From NCBI GenBank assembly GCA_003223455.1, contig QHVE01000015.1:52982-95941 (forward strand): 42,960 nt of DNA. The letters are read 5' to 3'. This DNA is from Gemmatimonadota bacterium. GTDB lineage: Bacteria; Gemmatimonadota; Gemmatimonadetes; Gemmatimonadales; Gemmatimonadaceae. Shown in pieces: positions 1,491 through 31,068 of this stretch. The position numbers were made by a program, and so were the translations under genes. The number at the start of each line of letters is the position of its first letter. The stretch's first letter is position 1. Below the pieces are notes generated by a model. That model saw only the letters and a list, made by a program, of their open reading frames with translations, ran no database searches and had not been told where the DNA came from.

Positions 1491-4400
1491 CTAGTGGAAA
1501 TCATGCCTCTTCGCGAACTCCGCGCCCACCGCGGCCTGCAGCGCGCGGAACTGCTGGGCGCGGACGTTCACGACCTTCTGCTCCACCTGCAGCACGCCCC
1601 GGACGAGCAGCAGCGGCGTGCGTGAGATCAGCAGCGCCTGGCGCTCGAAGCGCTGTGGCGTCACCACGACGTTGATCAGTCCCGTCTCGTCTTCGAGGGT
1701 CAGGAACACGAACCCCTTCGCGGTGCCCGGACGCTGGCGGCAGATCACGAGCCCCGCCGTGGCGACGCGCTCGCCGTCTCGTCCGTGGCGCAGCAGGTCC
1801 ACCGCGCTGCGCACGCCGTTCGGCTCGAGCACCGGCCGCACGTGCACCATCGGATGGCCGGCGAGCGAGATCCCCGTCATCCGGTAGTCTGCTTCGGTCA
1901 ATTCCACGCGCGTCATCGCGGGAACCGGCGCGACGTGCTCGTTCTCCACCACGCGTCGTCGCGGTGCGAGTGGTCCGGCATCGCCCCGTGCCGCGTCGAG
2001 CAGCGTCCAGAGTGCGGCGCGCCGCTTCCGCACGTCGGGCTCGTGCGGCAGCAGGGCGTCGAACGCGCCCGCCTCGGCGAGGTGACGCAGGCCGCGCTGG
2101 TCGAGCCCCGAACGCCGCACCACGTCGTCGATCGACGTGAATGGCCTCTCCGTCAGCGCCTGCTCGAGCCGGTCGCGCGCCGTCGCACCGAGGCCACGCA
2201 CGCTGCGCAACCCGAGCCGCACGGCCGGCGCTCCGCCGGCGCGCTTCTCCAGCGTTGCCTCCCATCCCGAGCGCGTCACGTCCACCGGCCGCACCTCCAC
2301 GCCATGCCGCCGCGCGTCCTCGACGAGCGTGCCCGGCGCGTAGAACCCCATCGGCTGCGCATTGAGGATCGCCGCCGTGAACTCGGGCGCGTAGTAGTGC
2401 TTGAGATACGCCGACGCGTAGACGAGCAGCGCGAAGCTCGCCGCGTGGCTCTCGGGGAAACCGTAGTCGGCGAATCCGTTGATCTGATTGAAGATCCGAT
2501 CCGCGTCTCCACTCGCGATCCCGTTCTTCGCCATTCCGTCGAGCATCCGCTGGCAGACCGCCGCCATCCGTTCGCGGCTTCGCTTGTGCCCCATCGCGCG
2601 ACGCAGCACGTCGGCGTCACCCGCCGAGAAGCCGGCGAGCGCGATCGCCACCTGCATCCCCTGCTCCTGGAAGAGGGGAACACCGAGCGTGCGCTCGAGG
2701 ATCGGCTCGAGCGACGGATGCAGATACGTCACCGGTTCCTCACCGTTCCGCCGCCGGAGATACGGATGCACCATGTCGCCCTGGATCGGGCCCGGCCGGA
2801 TGATCGCGACCTCGACGACCAGATCGTAGAACTTCCGTGGCTTCAACCGCGGCAGCGTGTTCATCTGCGCGCGACTCTCCACCTGGAAGACGCCGATCGT
2901 GTCGGCGGCGCACAGGTCGTCGTACACCGCCTGGTCGTCCATCGGGAGGGTCGCGAGGTCGATCGTCCCGCCGCGCTGCTGCCTGATGTACAGCAGGCAG
3001 TCCTGGATCAGCGTCAACATGCCGAGGCCGAGCAGATCGATCTTCACCAGCCCCGCCGCGTCGAGATCGTCCTTCTCCCACTGGATCACGGTGCGGCCCG
3101 GCATGCTCGCCGGCTCGATCGGCACGACCTGATGCAGTGGCTCGGCCGTCAGGACGAACCCGCCCACGTGGATCGACCGGTGCCGCGGCAGCTGATGCAG
3201 CCCGCCGACGATCTCGGCGAGCGCGCGCACGCGCTTGTCGTTCGGGTCGAGTCCCGCCCGCTCGACGACACTCGCGCCATTCGTCGCGCGCAGCGCCGTC
3301 GTCGGGTTGCGCCGCTCCACATGATCCTCGCCGGCGTACGGATCCTCCCACCGGTTGCCGCGCGCCGCCTGCTCGTGCATCGGCCGCGGGATGCGTGCGA
3401 GGTCGCGCGTCCCCGCGCTCTGCGCGTTCGGGCTCCCGTACGGCTCGTACGCCGCGTTGGGCGTCGGCCGGTCGGACGCCGTCATCGGCCGATTCACCTG
3501 CTTCGCCTTCTCCTTCTCGGCGCGCGACCGGTTGGTCGCCTCGGTGCCGCGCACCATCGCGCCGCCGAGCGCGCTCGCCACGGCGCCGTCGCTCTCGGCG
3601 TCGTCGGCGGGCGTCGCGCGCAGCGCCTCGGCGGTGGCCTTCGCCGAGAAGCGGTCGCTGAGCATGGCGAGCGAGTCGGCCTGCTCGACGCTGAAGCCCA
3701 GCACGCGCGCCGCGTCGCGCACGGCGCTCTTGCCGCGATAGGTGATCTGCTCGCAGACCATCGCGGCGTGGTCGCGCCCGTAGCGCTCGTACACGTACTG
3801 GATGACGCGCTCGCGCTCGCGGTGGGCGAAGTCGATGTCGATGTCGGGCGCTTCGGTGCGCTCCTCGCTGAGGAAGCGCTCGAACAGGAGGTTGAGCCGG
3901 ATCGGATCGACCGCGGTGATGCCGAGGCAGTAGCACACCGCGGAGTTGGCGGCCGAGCCGCGCCCCTGACAGAGGATCCCTTCGCGGCGCGCGAAGCGCA
4001 CGATGTCCCAGACGATGAGGAAGTAGCCCGCGAGCCCGAGCTTGGCGATGAGCCCGAGCTCGTGCTGGAGCTGCTTCTCGTGCTCCGCCGTACGCTTCGA
4101 CGTGCCGGGCTCGCCCCAGCGCTCGCGCGCGCCCTGCTCGACGAGCCGCGCCAGATACTCGTCGGGGCTCACGCCCATCGGCAGCGGGAACGCGGGGAGC
4201 GTCGGATCGAGCTGGTCGAGCCGGAACGCGCACCGCTCGGCGACGGCGAGCGTGGCGCGCACTCCATCGAGGTTGGCGCGCCACCGCCGCGCGATCTGCG
4301 CCGGGCTCTTGAGGTACCACTCGGCGTTCGGGCGCAGGCGCGTGCCCATCGTATCGAGTGTCTTGTCATGTCGAAGGCACGACAAGACGTCGTGCACCAT

Positions 4401-5024
4401 CCGATCGCGTGCCCGCGCATAGTGCACGTCGTTGGTGACGACCCACGGCACGTCGAGCGCGCGGGCGATCTCGATCAGCCGCGCGGTCGTGACGCGCTCT
4501 TCGGGAAGTCCGTGATCCCAGCACTCGATCGCGACGCGCCGGTCGAAGATGTCCATCAGCGTGGCCGCGGCCTCGCACGCGGCGTCGGTCTCGCCGCGCG
4601 CCGCGAGCGTCGGGACCCAGCCCCGCGGGCAGCCGGTGAGCGCGAACAGTCCGGAGGCGTGCGCGGCGAGCTCGTCGAGCGTGACGCGCGGATGACCGCG
4701 GTGCGTCACGTCCTGCCGCGCGAGGGTGACGAGGGTGGCGAGGTTGGCGTAGCCGTCGCGCGACTCGGCGAGCAGTGGCAGATGCGTGACGAGCGACTCG
4801 CCGCACTGCGGTACGACGACGGTGAGCTCCGCCCCGATGATCGCCGGCAGCTCCATCTCGCGCGCCGCGGTGGCGAAGCGAACGATCCCTCCGAGCTCGT
4901 CGTGGTCGGTGACCGCGAGCGCGGCGAGCCCGAGCTCCTTTGCCCGCGCGACGAGCGGCTCGGGAAGCGCGGCGCCGTCGAGGAGCGAGAAGGCGGTGTG
5001 GGCGTGGAGCTCGGCGTACTGCAC
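1491..5024 (-). CDS. dnaE2: Error-prone DNA polymerase III alpha subunit DnaE2 (ImuC)
   Basis: This is the catalytic polymerase of the ImuA-ImuB-DnaE2 mutasome, which copies past damaged template in SOS-type mutagenesis. The 1177-residue protein opens with a PHP domain (residues 3-18, AELHAHTAFSLLDGAA). The polymerase palm has PDIDIDF at 393-399; by comparison with E. coli alpha, D396 and D398 are two catalytic aspartates and D663 (in KIDLLGLG) is the third. The OB-fold region near the C-terminus has GLVICRQRPGTAKGFVFLTLEDE, typical of DnaE2. Residues about 475-595 are a charged, Asn/Pro-rich insertion between the palm/fingers segment and the RHRSIHVGGFV motif. Translation starts at a GTG with no clear ribosome site; a palindromic element abuts it upstream. 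Confidence 0.95.
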   Translation of the reverse strand: MQYAELHAHTAFSLLDGAALPEPLVARAKELGLAALAVTDHDELGGIVRFATAAREMELPAIIGAELTVVVPQCGESLVTHLPLLAESRDGYANLATLVTLARQDVTHRGHPRVTLDELAAHASGLFALTGCPRGWVPTLAARGETDAACEAAATLMDIFDRRVAIECWDHGLPEERVTTARLIEIARALDVPWVVTNDVHYARARDRMVHDVLSCLRHDKTLDTMGTRLRPNAEWYLKSPAQIARRWRANLDGVRATLAVAERCAFRLDQLDPTLPAFPLPMGVSPDEYLARLVEQGARERWGEPGTSKRTAEHEKQLQHELGLIAKLGLAGYFLIVWDIVRFARREGILCQGRGSAANSAVCYCLGITAVDPIRLNLLFERFLSEERTEAPDIDIDFAHRERERVIQYVYERYGRDHAAMVCEQITYRGKSAVRDAARVLGFSVEQADSLAMLSDRFSAKATAEALRATPADDAESDGAVASALGGAMVRGTEATNRSRAEKEKAKQVNRPMTASDRPTPNAAYEPYGSPNAQSAGTRDLARIPRPMHEQAARGNRWEDPYAGEDHVERRNPTTALRATNGASVVERAGLDPNDKRVRALAEIVGGLHQLPRHRSIHVGGFVLTAEPLHQVVPIEPASMPGRTVIQWEKDDLDAAGLVKIDLLGLGMLTLIQDCLLYIRQQRGGTIDLATLPMDDQAVYDDLCAADTIGVFQVESRAQMNTLPRLKPRKFYDLVVEVAIIRPGPIQGDMVHPYLRRRNGEEPVTYLHPSLEPILERTLGVPLFQEQGMQVAIALAGFSAGDADVLRRAMGHKRSRERMAAVCQRMLDGMAKNGIASGDADRIFNQINGFADYGFPESHAASFALLVYASAYLKHYYAPEFTAAILNAQPMGFYAPGTLVEDARRHGVEVRPVDVTRSGWEATLEKRAGGAPAVRLGLRSVRGLGATARDRLEQALTERPFTSIDDVVRRSGLDQRGLRHLAEAGAFDALLPHEPDVRKRRAALWTLLDAARGDAGPLAPRRRVVENEHVAPVPAMTRVELTEADYRMTGISLAGHPMVHVRPVLEPNGVRSAVDLLRHGRDGERVATAGLVICRQRPGTAKGFVFLTLEDETGLINVVVTPQRFERQALLISRTPLLLVRGVLQVEQKVVNVRAQQFRALQAAVGAEFAKRHDFH

Positions 5025-5027
5025 TTT

Positions 5028-5196
5028 GGTGAGTTGGTGAGTTGGCTAGTTAGTGAGTAGATCGGTGAACTAGTGAATGGAACGACCCTGGTCACAACCG
5101 GCGTGGAGATCACGCGCGGAGGTCGCACGCTGGTTGAGTGGCCCGTGCAGTCAACGCACCAATCAACCGACCAGCCAACCAGCGATCCAACTCACC
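5028..5196. repeat. About 169-bp palindromic intergenic element, copy 1 (imuB-dnaE2 gap)
   Basis: The outer arms are GGTGAGTTGG at 5028-5037 and CCAACTCACC at 5187-5196. The inner arms are imperfect: ACCCTGGTCACAACCGGCGT near 5084-5103 pairs with ACGCTGGTTGAGTGGCCCGT near 5127-5146. The last 40 bases differ at only one base, by eye, from copy 2 at 28976-29135. It fills almost the whole gap between the imuB stop and the dnaE2 start, so it would be transcribed as a long hairpin inside the presumed operon. It could attenuate or process the message; it encodes no protein. Confidence 0.85.
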
Positions 5197-5211
5197 ACCT
5201 CACCGCCGTTC

Positions 5212-7047
5212 TCAGTCAATCCATCCCTGCAACCGCCATCCATCCTCCGCACGATCGAGGTACACCACGAACTCCCCCGCCAGGCTCTCGCATCGCCAGT
5301 AGTCGCGCCGATAGCCGTCGTCCCACCAGTCGCCCGACAATCGCTCCGGCCCGATCGGGCGTGATACGGCGATCCGGTGGCCGCGCCACGTCACCACGCG
5401 CGGCACCTCCCCCTCGCACTCGACCTCCACCGGCTCCGCTGGCTCGAGCGTGCGATGTGCGGCCGTCGTCACCGGCACTGGCGCGGGCTCGCGCACCATC
5501 TGCAGTCCGCGCGATCCATTTGCCGCACGCGTCGCCGGGAGAGCGAGTGCAGATTCCTCGACTCGCTTCGCTCGCTCGGAATGACTGACGCCGTCATCCC
5601 GCGCGAAGTCGAGGGATCTGCGCCCGCCGTCATCCCGGACCACGTCGCGCGTGCGCGCCACCGGCTCCACCTCGAGCGCGTCCCTCCACACGCCGGCCTT
5701 CTCGGGCCGGTGGGTGTCCTGCGCCACGGCGCGCACGATGGCATCCGTCCCCAATTCACTGCGCAACCGCTCGATGGCCGCGTCGGCGGCACCGATGTCG
5801 CGCCACGACGCGCTCAGGAGATCACCCTGCTCGCCGGTGAGCGGCGCCGCCGCGACGATCGCCACGCGCACGGCGCACACCGGCGCGCTGAGCGTCCACC
5901 GGTCGAGCAGCGCGCGGCACCGCTCGAACAGCGGCGCGACGCGCGCGAGCGGACGCGCCGGACGCACCTCGCGCGTCACCGTGTGCACCGGCTCCGACGG
6001 GAGCGCACCGCGCGCGTCGTCGAGCGTGAGGGTGATCGCGACGGACGCGGCGGCACGTCCGTGTGCGACGAGCTGCTGCACCAGCCGGTCGAGCGCGGCG
6101 CGCACGAGGAACAGGATGGGCTCCATCGTCGAAGACGGCGACGCGAGCTCCACTTCCACCGCGGGCTGTGTCTCGATGCGCGCGAGCACCGGGCGACGGA
6201 GATCGTCGGCGCGTGCGAGCCGCCACGCGCGGATCCCCGCGTCGCCCCATCGCCGCTCGACGTCCTCCGCGGTGAGCTCGGCGAGCGCACCCACCGTGCG
6301 CAGGCCGAGCGCGTGCAGCGCTGCACGCAGCTCCTCGTCCATCGGCACGAGTGCGAGCGGGGCGGGGGCGAGGTACGCGGCGTCGCGCCCCGCCGGCACG
6401 ACGTTGATGAGCGTGCGCTCCGTCGCCTGCGGATCGAAGCTCGCGCCCGCCCACGTCGCCGCGCGCGCGGCGACGCACGATCCCGCGATCGCCACGCGCG
6501 GCCGCGGATGCCACCGCCTGGCCACGCGCAGCAGCTCCATGGCGAGCGCGCGCTCGCCGCCGACCGGATCGAATCCCGATGCACCGACCCACCAGAGCCC
6601 CGCCGCACCTTCGACTGGCGTCACCTGTGGACTAGCGCCGAGAAAGGCCGCGGAGGCTTCGATGATCGCCGCCTCGATCGCGACGTCGTCCCACGGCAGC
6701 TCGACGAGATCGGCGCACAGCGCGCGCGCCTCGGCGGGACGCATCCCCGCGCGCACGCCGAACCGTCCCGCGGCGGCGGTGACGGCACGCAGCCGCTTCC
6801 CGCCGATGTCGATCAGCGCGATCGGATGCTCATCCCAGTGCTCGGGCGCGGGCGACGGCGGTGCGGAGCTCGGTGGAAGGCTCGACGACGGCGTGCGCGG
6901 GGGTGCCGCGTCCGGCAACGTCAGCGGGAGGAGAAGCTGCGCGTCGGGCGTGGGCTCGCCGGTTTCCCCCCGCCGGGCCGCGCGCCACACCGCGCCGATC
7001 GGGAACCTCGGGATGCGTACACAGGCGACGCGCCACTCCGATTGCAC
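5212..7047 (-). CDS. imuB: ImuB, Y-family polymerase-like mutasome adaptor
   Basis: ImuB is a DinB-related protein without polymerase activity that links DnaE2 to the beta clamp and ImuA. The GTG start at 7045-7047 is preceded by TGGAGG at a good distance and gives a 611-residue protein opening MQSEWRVACVRIPRFPIGAVW. As expected for ImuB, the catalytic acidic motif of active Y-family enzymes is replaced by RIPRFP. The polymerase-fold core (IALIDIGGKRLRAVTAAAGRFG) starts only after a Pro/Ser-rich stretch of about 45 residues. Residues about 476-500 are encoded by a palindromic repeat (5549-5621) read through in frame. The C-terminal segment GDWWDDGYRRDYWRCES is typical of the family. The first 218 bases overlap imuA in another frame. 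Confidence 0.9.
   Translation of the reverse strand: MQSEWRVACVRIPRFPIGAVWRAARRGETGEPTPDAQLLLPLTLPDAAPPRTPSSSLPPSSAPPSPAPEHWDEHPIALIDIGGKRLRAVTAAAGRFGVRAGMRPAEARALCADLVELPWDDVAIEAAIIEASAAFLGASPQVTPVEGAAGLWWVGASGFDPVGGERALAMELLRVARRWHPRPRVAIAGSCVAARAATWAGASFDPQATERTLINVVPAGRDAAYLAPAPLALVPMDEELRAALHALGLRTVGALAELTAEDVERRWGDAGIRAWRLARADDLRRPVLARIETQPAVEVELASPSSTMEPILFLVRAALDRLVQQLVAHGRAAASVAITLTLDDARGALPSEPVHTVTREVRPARPLARVAPLFERCRALLDRWTLSAPVCAVRVAIVAAAPLTGEQGDLLSASWRDIGAADAAIERLRSELGTDAIVRAVAQDTHRPEKAGVWRDALEVEPVARTRDVVRDDGGRRSLDFARDDGVSHSERAKRVEESALALPATRAANGSRGLQMVREPAPVPVTTAAHRTLEPAEPVEVECEGEVPRVVTWRGHRIAVSRPIGPERLSGDWWDDGYRRDYWRCESLAGEFVVYLDRAEDGWRLQGWID
5549..5621. repeat. 73-bp REP-like inverted repeat inside imuB
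   Basis: The left arm begins GCAGATTCCTCGACT and ends CGGAATGAC. The right arm, on the opposite strand, reads GCAGATCCCTCGACT and ends CGGGATGAC. Together they form a long imperfect hairpin. This resembles the dispersed palindromic repeats found in many high-GC genomes. It is in frame with imuB and adds about 25 charged residues containing DFARDDG and SERAKRVEES. Confidence 0.85.
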
Positions 7048-27479: not shown

Positions 27480-28237
27480 CAAACGTTCGGAATCCCCCCG
27501 AACAGATCTTCACCGCTTCCCGACACACCCACCGCGACGAAGTAGTCTTCCGTCGCCGGCAGCGCCACGGTGCGAAAGTACGCCTCGTGCTCGCGCTGCG
27601 TGCGATGCGCGAAGTACGCCTCGAGCTTCTTCTCGTGCCACGCCTCCATCGGCACGCGAAGCTGGATCGGCTGTCCTTCCTGCGCCGGCCGGTCGCCGGG
27701 GAAGGGCATCGGCCACGTGACGTAGCAGAGCCGATCGGGCCGATGCGGCGCGAGACCGGATTCGAGCTGCTCCGGAAACGCCGCCGTTCCGGCGAGCAGC
27801 GCCGCCGACGTCGCGAAGCGGCAGATCGCCTTGTGATCGCGGTGGCCCGTCGGTGCGCCCTCCGGTCCGAACGTCAGCACCACCTGCGGCCGCTCGCGGC
27901 GGAGGAAGGCCACGATCTGGCCGATCACGACGTCGGGATCCGCCGCCGCGAGCGCGCCGTCCGGATGTCCGCCATGCTCCACGCGTTGCACGCCGAGCGC
28001 GGCGCACGCCCCGAGCAGTTCGGCGCGGCGGATTCGGCCCAGCTCCTCTCGGGACGAGAAGGGGACGCCGGACGCTCGTCCGGCATCCCCGTCGGTCGCG
28101 CAGTACAGCGTGACGCGCGCGCCCTCTTCGGCATGCTTCGCCAGAGTCCCGCCCGTGGCGAACGTCTCGTCGTCGGGATGCGCGAACACCGCCGCGAGCG
28201 AGCGCACGTGATGTCCGTCAGTCGCGGCGGCGGCCAC
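27479..28237 (-). CDS. PIG-L/LmbE-family deacetylase
   Basis: This 252-residue zinc deacetylase acts on N-acetylated sugars or related conjugates. The zinc-binding motif AHPDDE is at residues 19-24, and the third ligand region is TGHRDHKAI. Length and the end of the conserved core fit the family. The GTG start at 28237 overlaps the BI-1 stop by 20 bases; a GTG at 28207 (VRSLAAVFAHPDDE) is an alternative that starts just after that stop. The substrate is unknown. No mycothiol or bacillithiol genes are adjacent. Confidence 0.9.
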   Translation of the reverse strand: MAAAATDGHHVRSLAAVFAHPDDETFATGGTLAKHAEEGARVTLYCATDGDAGRASGVPFSSREELGRIRRAELLGACAALGVQRVEHGGHPDGALAAADPDVVIGQIVAFLRRERPQVVLTFGPEGAPTGHRDHKAICRFATSAALLAGTAAFPEQLESGLAPHRPDRLCYVTWPMPFPGDRPAQEGQPIQLRVPMEAWHEKKLEAYFAHRTQREHEAYFRTVALPATEDYFVAVGVSGSGEDLFGGIPNV

Positions 28238-28895
28238 CGAGCAGCGAGAGGATGGCGAGGAAGAGGTTGAGCAGGTCGAGGTAGATGTTCACCGCGGCCG
28301 GTACGTAGTCGTCGGGCCCATACTGCCCCGACCGCACGATTCGCCACGTGTCGAACACCAGCAGGCCGCTGAACACGAGCACGGTGCCGCCCGCGATCCA
28401 GACCGACGCAGCCGCGCTGCCGACGAACATGTTGATCAGCGACGTCGCGATGAGCACCCACAACCCGACGATGAAGAAGCTGCCCCAGGCGCTGAAGTCG
28501 CGCCGGCTCATCACGGCGTAGAGCGACAGCACGCCGAACGTCGAGAGGGTGAGCATGCCTGCCTGTCCGACGATCCCCGGGCTGCTCCGCTCCGCCATGA
28601 ACAGGAAGGGCGCGATCCAGATCCCCTCGATGAAGGTGAAGATGAGGGTGAGGATGATGTTCTTGGGAAAGCTGCGCCGCGCCTGCATCGCCATGAACAG
28701 CGGCGCGAACATCGCCAGCATGGTGATGATCGGATGGCGCGCCACCGCCTGCATGAGCGCCGGCTGCGTGAACCCGAAGGCGACGCCGAGCGCGGTGACG
28801 ATGATGCTGATGAAGACGAGGCCGTAGGTGCGCCGAACGAGCGTCGCACGCTCCTGGCCGGTCCGAACGAGGGTCCCAGTGTAGGGGACGCCCAT
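28218..28895 (-). CDS. Bax inhibitor-1 (BI-1/YccA) family membrane protein
   Basis: This 225-residue protein has seven predicted transmembrane helices. It is a TMBIM/BI-1 family member, a group linked to calcium leak and membrane protein quality control. Typical segments are YGLVFISIIVTALGVAFGF, GIWIAPFLFM and a C-terminal NIYLDLLNLFLAILSLLGGRRRD. GGAG sits eight bases before the ATG. A TATATT on the minus strand (28923-28928) could be a -10 box, though no -35 was found. The gene overlaps PIG-L downstream. Confidence 0.92.
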   Translation of the reverse strand: MGVPYTGTLVRTGQERATLVRRTYGLVFISIIVTALGVAFGFTQPALMQAVARHPIITMLAMFAPLFMAMQARRSFPKNIILTLIFTFIEGIWIAPFLFMAERSSPGIVGQAGMLTLSTFGVLSLYAVMSRRDFSAWGSFFIVGLWVLIATSLINMFVGSAAASVWIAGGTVLVFSGLLVFDTWRIVRSGQYGPDDYVPAAVNIYLDLLNLFLAILSLLGGRRRD

Positions 28896-28975
28896 GGGGA
28901 TGCTCCGTGTGGGGGTGTAGGAAATATACCCCTTGGACGATTCAGGGAGCCATTGGGACTTGGACGCGGTGCGCT

Positions 28976-29135
28976 GGTGAGTTGGATAGCTAGTTAGTTG
29001 GACGGTGAGCGAGTGAACGGAACGGCTCTGGCTACGAACCAGCGTGGAGATCCCTCGGCGGGGCTTCCACGCCGGTTCTGACCAGGGCCGTCACTCACCA
29101 ATCAACCGACCAGCCAACCAACGATCCAACTCACC
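28976..29135. repeat. About 160-bp palindromic intergenic element, copy 2
   Basis: The outer arms are GGTGAGTTGG (28976-28985) and CCAACTCACC (29126-29135). The inner arms form a long hairpin: ACGGCTCTGG...GAACC.GCGTGGA near 29020-29050 pairs with TCCACGC.GGTTC...CCAGGGCCGT near 29066-29092. Its right third matches copy 1 (5157-5196) almost exactly. It lies between the end of the DUF4097 operon and the BI-1 gene, both on the minus strand. That is the same type of position as copy 1: after a stop and before a start. Confidence 0.85.
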
Positions 29136-29155
29136 GACTCACCGCAGTCCGGCAC

Positions 29156-29965
29156 TCACCGTTTACGCAGTTCAACATTCCCATTCACGGTGGACAACCG
29201 GATCCGCCGTCCGCCCTTGCCCACGGTGGCGCGCAGGTGGCGTGGGTCGACGCGGCCGGTGATCGTCACCGGCCAGTCCGTCTGGAAGCGGCCGTTCACC
29301 GTGCTCAACTCGATCTGGGCGTCGATGTCCTCCCCGAACTCGGCGATCACGTTCCCGTTCACGCTGGAGAAATCGAGGTCCTCACTGGTGCCCACGCGTC
29401 CCATCCGCGCGTGGACGGTGCCGTTCACGCTGCTCGCCTGCACAGGGCCACCGCTGCTCGTCGCGTCCACGCCGCCGTTCACGGAGCCCGCCTCCACCTC
29501 ACCCGTCGCGCCCTCCACACTCACGCCGCCGTTCACCGACCACGCCCCGACGTTCACCCCCTTGGGGAGGCGCACCTCGAAGTCCACGGCCACGTCGTTG
29601 TTCCGGCGATGGCCACCATCGTCGTGCGAGCGGTAGCCGCTCTCGTCGCACGTGGCGTTCTCCGACCAGTACGCACAGACGAGGATGCTGCCGTCCGACG
29701 ACTTCCTGCTCTCGATGCGCACGAGGGCCGGATCGCCGCGGCGCCAGCTCTTGGTGGCGACGATCTCGACGCGATCGCTCGTCGAGGGATGCACGCGGAC
29801 CTCGCCGATCACGTTGCGCACGCGCAGCCACTGGCCGGCGGGCACGCGCTCGTTGAGGGTGAAGGCGCGCTCCTGCTGACGATCCTGCCGGTCCTGCGCC
29901 CCGAGCACCGCGGGCGCGAGCGCCAGCACGAGGGCAGCGACTGCTGCGGACGAGCGAAGAGCCAT
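29156..29965 (-). CDS. DUF4097-type beta-helix protein, exported
   Basis: This 269-residue exported protein (signal peptide residues 1-22, ending VLGAQ) has a repeated SVNG/TVNG pattern (for example WSVNGGVSVEGATG, GSVNGGVDATSSG, SSVNGNVIAEFG, STVNGNVELRKR). Such DUF4097 repeats build a beta-solenoid; function is unknown. The start ATG 29965 has GGAG seven bases upstream. It is the last gene of the sigma / anti-sigma operon, 32 bases after a second DUF4097 gene. Expression is presumably under the ECF sigma factor (inferred from position). Confidence 0.85.
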   Translation of the reverse strand: MALRSSAAVAALVLALAPAVLGAQDRQDRQQERAFTLNERVPAGQWLRVRNVIGEVRVHPSTSDRVEIVATKSWRRGDPALVRIESRKSSDGSILVCAYWSENATCDESGYRSHDDGGHRRNNDVAVDFEVRLPKGVNVGAWSVNGGVSVEGATGEVEAGSVNGGVDATSSGGPVQASSVNGTVHARMGRVGTSEDLDFSSVNGNVIAEFGEDIDAQIELSTVNGRFQTDWPVTITGRVDPRHLRATVGKGGRRIRLSTVNGNVELRKR

Positions 29966-29997
29966 CGGTCGATCTCCAGGTGAGAGGTGCGGCATCA

Positions 29998-31068
29998 TCA
30001 CCGCTGTCCGGTCGAAGAGAGGGTCACGTCGCCGCTGAACGTCTCAGCCATGATACGTGCCGTGCCCTGTCCCAGCGAGAAGTTGAGCTTCTTGGCCTGC
30101 GAAGCGCCGATGCCGTGCGTCCCCGGGGTGAGCGTGATCGGGAACGCGCTGTCGATCTCGCCGCTGAACGTGGAGAGGCTGAGCTGCGCTCCGACGTTGG
30201 CTGGCAGCGTAAGCCGGATCTCGCCGGAGTGCGTCGTGAACTCGTAGCGGCCGGTGCTCACGATGGTGCCGCCGAACTCGAGGTCACCGCTGGTGCTGTG
30301 TGTGCGCACCACCTTGGACACGACGTCCTTCAGGTCGATGTCGCCGCTCACCGTCTCGATCTCCACGTCGCCGCGTGCGCGATCGAGTGAGATGTCGCCC
30401 GACAGTGTGTGGAGGTTGGCGGTACCGCGCACGCCTTCGATCGTGATGTCGCCCGACAGCGTCTCGGCCTCCAGATTGTCGCCCGCGTCGCGAATCTCGA
30501 TGTCTCCGCTCTGCGCGTGGGCCTCGATGTCGCCGTGCACGCCGTGGACCGCGAGCGAGCCGCTCCACGTGCTCGCCTCGAGACGCACGCCGGCAGGCAC
30601 CGACAGCTCGAAGTGCGCGTCGTTGCACCCGCGGTTCGACGCCGGCTCCAGCGTGGCGTTCGCGCCGCTGCTCACGAACCGGATCGCGCCGCGCTCGGTG
30701 CGCGCCTTGACCACGATCTGGTTGCGCTCCGTCCCCGTGATCACAACGTCGCCACCGGGGCAGCTCACGTTCACCGTCCCGCGTGCGTCGAACGTGACCG
30801 TCGTGTCGAGCACTCCGGCAAGCTCGCGCTCGCGCCGCTCCTGCTCGCGCTCACGATCGCGCTCGGCGCGTGCCTGGTCCTGGTCACGTGCGCGTTCGGC
30901 GCGCTCCTCTGCCTGCTCACGCTCCCGCTCGCGACGGTCTCGCTCGCGTTCCCGCTCGCGTTCGACACGCTCCTGCTCGCGCTCGCGATCGGCCGAGGAT
31001 TGCGCCGAGCTCGGCGAAGGCACCGCGAGCGCGAGTGCGGCCATCAGTAGGACGAGGTGGCGGGGCAT
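29998..31068 (-). CDS. DUF4097-type protein with a long Arg/Glu helix
   Basis: This 356-residue exported protein has a signal peptide (residues 1-22, ending SSAQ). Residues about 24-84 are almost only Arg, Glu, Asp, Gln and Ala (for example REREQERVERERERERDRRE), which predicts a single stable charged helix. After it, DUF4097 repeats recur with the motif SGDI/SGDV (residues about 170-340). The helix could space the beta-solenoid from the membrane or act as a rod. It sits 13 bases after the anti-sigma gene, so it is likely co-transcribed. Confidence 0.85.
   Translation of the reverse strand: MPRHLVLLMAALALAVPSPSSAQSSADREREQERVERERERERDRREREREQAEERAERARDQDQARAERDREREQERRERELAGVLDTTVTFDARGTVNVSCPGGDVVITGTERNQIVVKARTERGAIRFVSSGANATLEPASNRGCNDAHFELSVPAGVRLEASTWSGSLAVHGVHGDIEAHAQSGDIEIRDAGDNLEAETLSGDITIEGVRGTANLHTLSGDISLDRARGDVEIETVSGDIDLKDVVSKVVRTHSTSGDLEFGGTIVSTGRYEFTTHSGEIRLTLPANVGAQLSLSTFSGEIDSAFPITLTPGTHGIGASQAKKLNFSLGQGTARIMAETFSGDVTLSSTGQR

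Follow-up and report, generated by a model that had tools for sequence, protein, structure and literature searches.

A dispersed family of palindromic repeats with tandem-repeat arms at gene ends in a Gemmatimonadota genome

INTRODUCTION

What is the palindromic sequence that separates an imuB-like gene from dnaE2 in a Gemmatimonadota bacterium, and is it likely to affect the genes that it separates? The sequence lies in a 42,960-nt stretch of contig QHVE01000015.1 (referred to below as the window), where an earlier note, prepared from the DNA letters, had described two copies of a palindromic intergenic element and suggested that folding of the transcript could set DnaE2 output from a mutasome operon.

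All four genes that flank the two copies are on the minus strand. The gene after copy 1 (1491 to 5024) encodes a dnaE2-type error-prone DNA polymerase, as judged by matches to Pfam DNA_pol3_alpha and NCBIfam PRK05672, and its GTG start, the first possible start in its own frame, is 3 nt from the element. Upstream of copy 1 is a gene for an imuB-like Y-family polymerase homologue (5212 to 6990, with a start taken from a codon-usage gene caller in an open reading frame that is open to 7137). Its assignment is based on weak DNA polymerase IV matches, gene calls, and synteny, the gene being syntenic with dnaE2 in several congeners. Copy 2 is preceded by a gene with no Pfam match, whose stop codon abuts the element (29156 to 30001, with an uncertain start at either 29929 or 30001), and is followed by a gene for a Bax1-I family membrane protein (28218 to 28895).

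RESULTS

Alignment of the family to which they belong places copy 1, a palindromic repeat of about 180 bp, at 5028 to 5205 and copy 2 at about 28970 to 29145, close to the limits given in the earlier note, which had located both elements correctly. Both are oriented with the better-folding strand, here termed B-first, on the minus strand, and for copy 1 this is the coding strand of both neighboring genes. Read on that strand, copy 1 consists of a G-rich and C-poor 5' arm (5150 to 5205) that directly follows the stop codon of the imuB-like gene, a GC-rich core hairpin (5084 to 5149), and a C-rich 3' arm with 8-nt and 4-nt periodicity (5028 to 5083). The common outer ends GGTGAGTTGG / CCAACTCACC were found in both copies, and the right 40 bases differ, as had been counted by eye, at exactly one position (5157 to 5196 compared to 29096 to 29135). 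The inner inverted repeat was likewise confirmed in both copies, with inverted arms of 41 to 48 nt that are 71 to 78% complementary. The folding computation that the note had proposed gave -83.5 kcal/mol for copy 1 compared to -59.8 kcal/mol in dinucleotide shuffles (z, -5.3) and -104.8 compared to -64.5 kcal/mol for copy 2 (z, -8.5), with none of 200 shuffles folding as well as the window copies. The description of each element as filling the gap between a stop and the next start is exact for copy 1, which lies between the stop at 5212 and the GTG at 5024, but not for copy 2, because the next gene start (28895) is approximately 75 nt away. The reported lack of a ribosome site at the dnaE2 GTG was borne out, there being no Shine-Dalgarno-like stretch between copy 1 and the GTG. 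A coding open reading frame and a target-site duplication were both looked for and neither was found, in agreement with the view that this is not an insertion sequence.

A DNA search followed by a covariance model identified 43 full-length, imperfect palindromes of approximately 178 bp in the source genome (G000; a draft assembly of 4.96 Mb in 127 contigs), so that the two copies in the window are more than a chance pair. About a dozen short relatives that were one-armed or lacked a core were also present. One copy of the element (L080:2079-2253; G000:C127:72978-73152) has a stretch of N inside its core, as though the assembler had failed to resolve the palindrome. Mean pairwise identity among 33 aligned copies was 79%. 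A DNA search yielded no copies of the 180-bp family in 40 relatives, nine of them from the same genus. A conserved 20-mer had no match in a viral collection from which records nearest the source genome may be missing, and its exact matches in a collection of named genomes, which may leave out records very near the source genome, were to unrelated sequence without arms or palindrome (L052 and L053) and were rejected. The element had no match in Rfam, and a search of the literature on such repeats in Gemmatimonadetes and Gemmatimonas returned nothing relevant.

The arms of the family are built from short tandem units. The 5' arm contains 24 G and 3 C in 52 nt (3 C in 52 to 53 nt across arms), with a period of 8 (31 of 44 matches) and a period of 4, and in the alignment an unchanged G recurs every four bases along most of its length while the bases between vary; in the 3' arm a nearly unchanged C recurs likewise, again with variable intervening bases. 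Arms of the GTGAGTTG type, to which the window family belongs, do not contain GGG, whereas GGG is present in further unit types, for example GGGGATGC. We also observed that GGTTGATTGG in one arm is nearly invariant across all of the aligned copies while its pairing partner is variable (A1 columns 39-50, L001-L049), as if the sequence and not the pair were kept.

The placement of the copies with respect to genes is far from even. Of 43 copies, 19 are in convergent gaps, 21 in tandem gaps, 2 in divergent gaps, and 1 at a contig end; 14 of those in tandem gaps are oriented in the direction of the genes and 7 against it. Divergent gaps constitute about a third of the intergenic non-coding bases in 400 kb of G000, yet hold only the 2 copies mentioned above. 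Convergent gaps are favored and divergent gaps are avoided by the family, an avoidance that fits a function at 3' ends and selection against promoter damage alike. With flanking genes called by a purpose-written codon-usage script, so that single distances may be off, 52 of 60 flanking 3' ends fell at -20 to +12 nt from the element, compared to only 7 of 25 5' ends that were equally close. Nearly every copy begins at a stop codon or contributes one; many genes obtain their TGA from the GGTGAG end of the element, and distances of -7 and -15 recur because genes use the TGA inside GGTGAGTTGGTGAG as their stop codon. For convergent pairs, the median difference between gap length and element length is -3 nt, and the element therefore occupies a junction at which the genes would otherwise abut. 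Four copies end 0 to 7 nt before a codirectional start codon, so near that a complete stop of transcription would silence the next gene unless it had another promoter.

The consensus is a near-perfect hairpin, with 75 Watson-Crick, 7 G-U, and 1 A-C among 88 pairs on the B-first strand, and is much more palindromic than single copies. The B-first strand folded better in 35 of 43 copies. Compensatory change, however, which the note had named as a mark of a structured repeat family, was absent. In 33 copies, paired cells reached 85.4% compared to 85.8% in shuffles, double-sided changes numbered 30 compared to 41.3, and covariation was below shuffles on all five measures. The outer arms of one copy were no more complementary to each other than to those of other copies (635 of 2000 permutations were as good), the middle 26 nt had a small within-copy excess of pairing (3 of 2000 permutations), and copy-specific changes displayed no strand bias (131 G-U and 129 A-C). 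Since change was neither compensatory nor strand-biased, we take the fold to belong to the source sequence, with single copies not visibly held to it. The earlier interpretation is thus upheld as to a dispersed family of intergenic palindromes, in many copies and tied to gene ends, but not as to a structured RNA family marked by compensatory change.

Linkage disequilibrium between alignment columns decayed with distance, with r2 falling from 0.17 at distances of less than 15 bp to 0.04 at more than 40 bp, and all four combinations were present in 417 of 528 column pairs. Together, these results imply that segments have been exchanged between copies or that the copies arose as mosaics. Recurrent mutation at individual sites could raise the number of pairs with four combinations, but the decay with distance would not follow from it.

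Searches for signals within the element were negative in the window: no terminator-like site with a U-tract was found at either copy, and neither contained a promoter. Of 52 ends of ACGGCCTCGGGA-type cores, 13 have 5 or more T in 9. As for mobility, terminal inverted repeats are present in the form of the common outer ends and the full-length palindrome. Direct identities between flanks were not above those of shuffled pairs and reached 4 nt or longer in 0 copies, although, with element ends judged by eye, a 2-nt duplication may be hidden. A transposase search confined to the Y1 family detected one Y1_Tnp (RAYT-like) gene in G000 (L051:1343-2372; G000:C32), whose flanks carry a different repeat, GGGGTCAGACTCCTTGAAAA, and whose 3.3-kb locus contains no copy of the 180-bp element. 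This flanking repeat was also seen in several gaps of the sister genome, G007, as GGGGTCAGAC...GTCTGACCCC.

We subsequently compared individual gene junctions, or slots, among related genomes, all of them draft assemblies. The slot between imuB and dnaE2, which holds the 180-bp element in G000, contains a single (GGGGATGC)n arm in G007, a gap of a few nucleotides in G002, and another long quasi-palindrome in G005; this last sequence, upstream of dnaE2 on L156, is built of GAGCACGAGC/GCTCGTGCTC words. In G007, dnaE2 has GGAGG a short way before an ATG in the slot where copy 1 sits. The copy 2 slot holds an GGGGATGC-type hairpin with a ACGGCCTCGGGA core in G007 and about 31 nt between the aligned flanks in G009 and at one G005 locus. 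A second G005 locus has a hairpin of approximately 90 nt at the same point, with flanks 86 to 88% identical, so that, in a bin that is 6% contaminated, the two G005 loci represent a filled and an empty site. All 8 comparable slots that hold the family in G000 contain a tandem-repeat element with other arms or another core in G007, a proportion that is inflated because some G007 contigs were picked for containing matches, while 24 of 25 tandem gaps that are hairpin-free in G000 are so in G007 too. When slots were located by gene homology alone, 4 of 4 held a repeat element in G007; three of these hold the family in G000, two of them being those in the window. Some other congeners are empty at slots that are filled in G000. 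As read from these alignments, design and place appear to persist while the sequence is swapped quickly.

The covariance model also matched further genomes within the genus, as well as more distant relatives, where the sequence was different. Hairpins in these relatives have arms of 7- to 8-nt tandem repeats that run from the stop codon, are G-rich and C-poor on the coding strand, and usually surround a GC-rich core. This design, built from other units, was found in G001, G003, G007, G008, G044, G025, and G033. A survey of unit types, which covered 173 to 400 kb per genome, revealed several types in each genome. Among these, GTGAGTTG and GTACTGAGTACC are common to G000 and G007, GGGGATGC was found in G007, GTGGTGAGTGG in G000, GTCGGTCA in G001, GTAGGTGG in G008, and GGTGGTT and GAGGGCA in G044, with 7-mer units occurring in G044 and G033. 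In 6 of 6 surveyed genomes, 7- to 8-mer tandem repeats were more common after stops than before starts, G004 contributing only one repeat. The exact triple GTGAGTTG unit was confined to G000 and G007 among 395 genomes of the phylum. Arms and cores occur in different combinations, in that the left and right arms of certain hairpins belong to different unit types and the core ACGGCCTCGGGA...TCCCGAGGCCGT (16 in G000 and 41 in G007) is joined to different arms at different loci; among 97 other relatives searched, this core was found only in G060, once. The earlier note had one family in view, whereas hairpins of this design, made of different repeat units, are also found in related genomes.

DISCUSSION

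Based on the data presented above, the sequence before dnaE2 is one of 43 dispersed copies and probably not a mutasome-specific regulator. Our preferred reading, to which we assign a probability of about 0.5, is that the family is a copied, recombining palindromic repeat of gene ends that probably provides mRNAs with a hairpin 3' end. A putative copying process would land copies at gene ends and so spread the family, and recombination or gene conversion between copies would remodel them, with drift afterwards. Since the element begins at stop codons, transcripts would be expected to enter it, and the upstream mRNA would then acquire a very stable hairpin of up to approximately 80 bp at its 3' end; at a convergent pair, both mRNAs would receive one. 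Such a hairpin could act as a bidirectional transcription end, an RNase III substrate, or a block to exonucleases. Between imuB and dnaE2, the effect may be lower or decoupled dnaE2 expression or translation, although this is a guess. Three sets of results count against this reading, namely the lack of covariation or strand bias, so that individual copies show no constraint on their fold, the lack of a U-tract or promoter in the window copies, and the four copies that end 0 to 7 nt before a codirectional start codon.

We rank this 3'-end reading above the possibility that the element is purely selfish or neutral, a MITE-like palindrome that has no role and accumulates where it does the least harm, at gene ends and tight convergent junctions, its palindrome mattering only for its own mobility. 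This is the less probable of the two, and yet much of the data is compatible with it, including the missing covariation, copy-specific changes without strand bias, a consensus far more palindromic than individual copies, the absence of the family from 40 relatives in the DNA search, and the filled and empty sites in related sequences. However, no target duplication was found, and the search of the Y1 family linked no transposase to the element, the sole Y1 gene having its own flanking repeat. Moreover, exact abutment to stop codons, and slots that in the sister genome hold unrelated hairpins of the same design, would not be expected of random, tolerated insertion, unless a strong insertion preference gave both the abutment and the sharing of slots.

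A cis-regulatory RNA that is specific to the mutasome and sets DnaE2 output, as first suggested for this locus, has in its favor the end of copy 1 at 3 nt before a dnaE2 GTG that lacks a ribosome-binding sequence, in the place where G007 has GGAGG before an ATG. We nevertheless consider it improbable on comparative grounds, as the family is found at 42 other places beside unrelated genes, the slot is empty or otherwise filled in congeners, and no conserved, structure-specific evolution was detected. Still more doubtful is local growth without dispersal, in which template switching and slippage of repeats would extend a native terminator hairpin de novo as far as the stop codons. It would explain why the arms consist of simple tandem repeats extending to the stop codons, why some cores resemble terminator hairpins, and why unit number varies strongly between loci, but 43 loci that share one 180-bp sequence, core included, are impossible by local growth. 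In addition, the two arms of some hairpins are built from different unit types, and the arms of one copy are no more alike than those of different copies. For the 180-bp family, growth by template switching is ruled out by the common core and by the uncoupling of arms within copies, while for the simple-repeat hairpins of relatives local growth may still hold. Finally, a REP/BIME-type element mobilized by RAYT, a Y1 transposase, is highly improbable: the copies are dispersed, palindromic, and at gene ends, and the genome has one Y1_Tnp gene, but this idea is contradicted by the flanks of that gene, which carry GGGGTCAGACTCCTTGAAAA in a 3.3-kb locus from which the element is absent, and by an element length of approximately 178 bp, not 20 to 40 bp.

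The nearest known kind of sequence is found in Xanthomonas and Nostoc, whose gene-end heptamer repeats, (GGGAATC)n and (GGGGA[C/T]T)n, are located mostly 0 to 50 bp after the stop codon or overlap it, are G-rich on the coding strand, often occur as two copies in inverted orientation, and are under-represented between divergent genes (PMC4692102). They occupy the same slots in related species with extensive variation in length and sequence, are not linked to mobile elements, and are of unknown function (PMC4692102). The family in the window resembles them in having a short tandem unit that is G-rich on the coding strand and lies within 50 bp after a stop codon or overlaps it, in being scarce between divergent genes, and in the occupation of the same gene slot in related species with changed sequence. 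It differs in that its unit is 8 nt and not a heptamer (although 7 nt in some relatives), the arms usually enclose a GC-rich core, a composite of approximately 178 bp is dispersed as 43 copies, and the unit type is replaced at the same slot between sister species. The window family also has no G-triplets, and the potential for G-quadruplexes is thus not shared; with respect to the idea of G-quadruplexes in the Xanthomonas and Nostoc repeats, what these have in common with the family is their position at gene ends and their inverted pairing, and not G-triplets.

Other known elements are more distant. ERIC/IRU, YPAL/RU-2, and NEMIS/Correia are imperfect palindromes of 100 to 170 bp with tens of intergenic copies (PMC2229807), and are similar to the family in size, in copy number, in being transcribable into long hairpins, and in not needing an open reading frame of their own (PMC2229807). 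Unlike them, the family lacks TA ends and target duplication, has tandem-repeat arms, and strongly abuts stop codons, and its sequence matches no known family. Pneumococcal RUP and BOX are likewise small intergenic repeats that are interspersed in tens of copies (PMC3049150, PMC2229807). REP/BIME sequences are palindromic, dispersed, located downstream of genes, and enriched between unidirectional and convergent genes (PMC3733652); the family shares these properties, but is 178 bp and not a hairpin of 20 to 40 bp, has no GTAG/CGTC tag, and is not the repeat that accompanies the Y1 transposase. Stem-loops that follow stop codons or lie in convergent gaps are widespread among bacteria (PMC6060812, PMC1590033), and such post-stop stem-loops are the ordinary background for the family. 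As with intrinsic (bidirectional) terminators, its inverted repeats lie just after stops and are enriched in convergent gaps, but the window copies have no U-tract, the stems are about 80 bp, and the sequence forms a dispersed family.

It is tempting to go further and to regard these elements as an undescribed class of gene-end modules, consisting of genome-specific hairpins of 7- to 8-nt repeats with interchangeable cores that are copied to stop codons, where slots and design are retained while the sequences themselves turn over within the divergence that separates sister species. We put this forward tentatively, as a proposal that may well not hold. If gene ends were repeatedly rewritten in this way, termination or 3'-end protection would depend on a fast-evolving, copied module and not on conserved terminators, and there would have to be machinery by which short repeats are copied to stop codons.

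Two additional dispersed sequences were observed while these genomes were compared. A second long hairpin, with GTACTGAGTACC-like arms, is dispersed in convergent gaps (L106:14256-14458, L133:7846, L141:8975, and L119:16578); the GTACTGAGTACC-armed hairpin is present in G000 and G007, and in a weaker form in G004. In addition, a dispersed GTGCAGATCCCTCGACT...GCTCGGGATGAC sequence recurs in intergenic gaps of G007 and G000 (L137:4837-5034, L147:9880-10089, and L152:8083).
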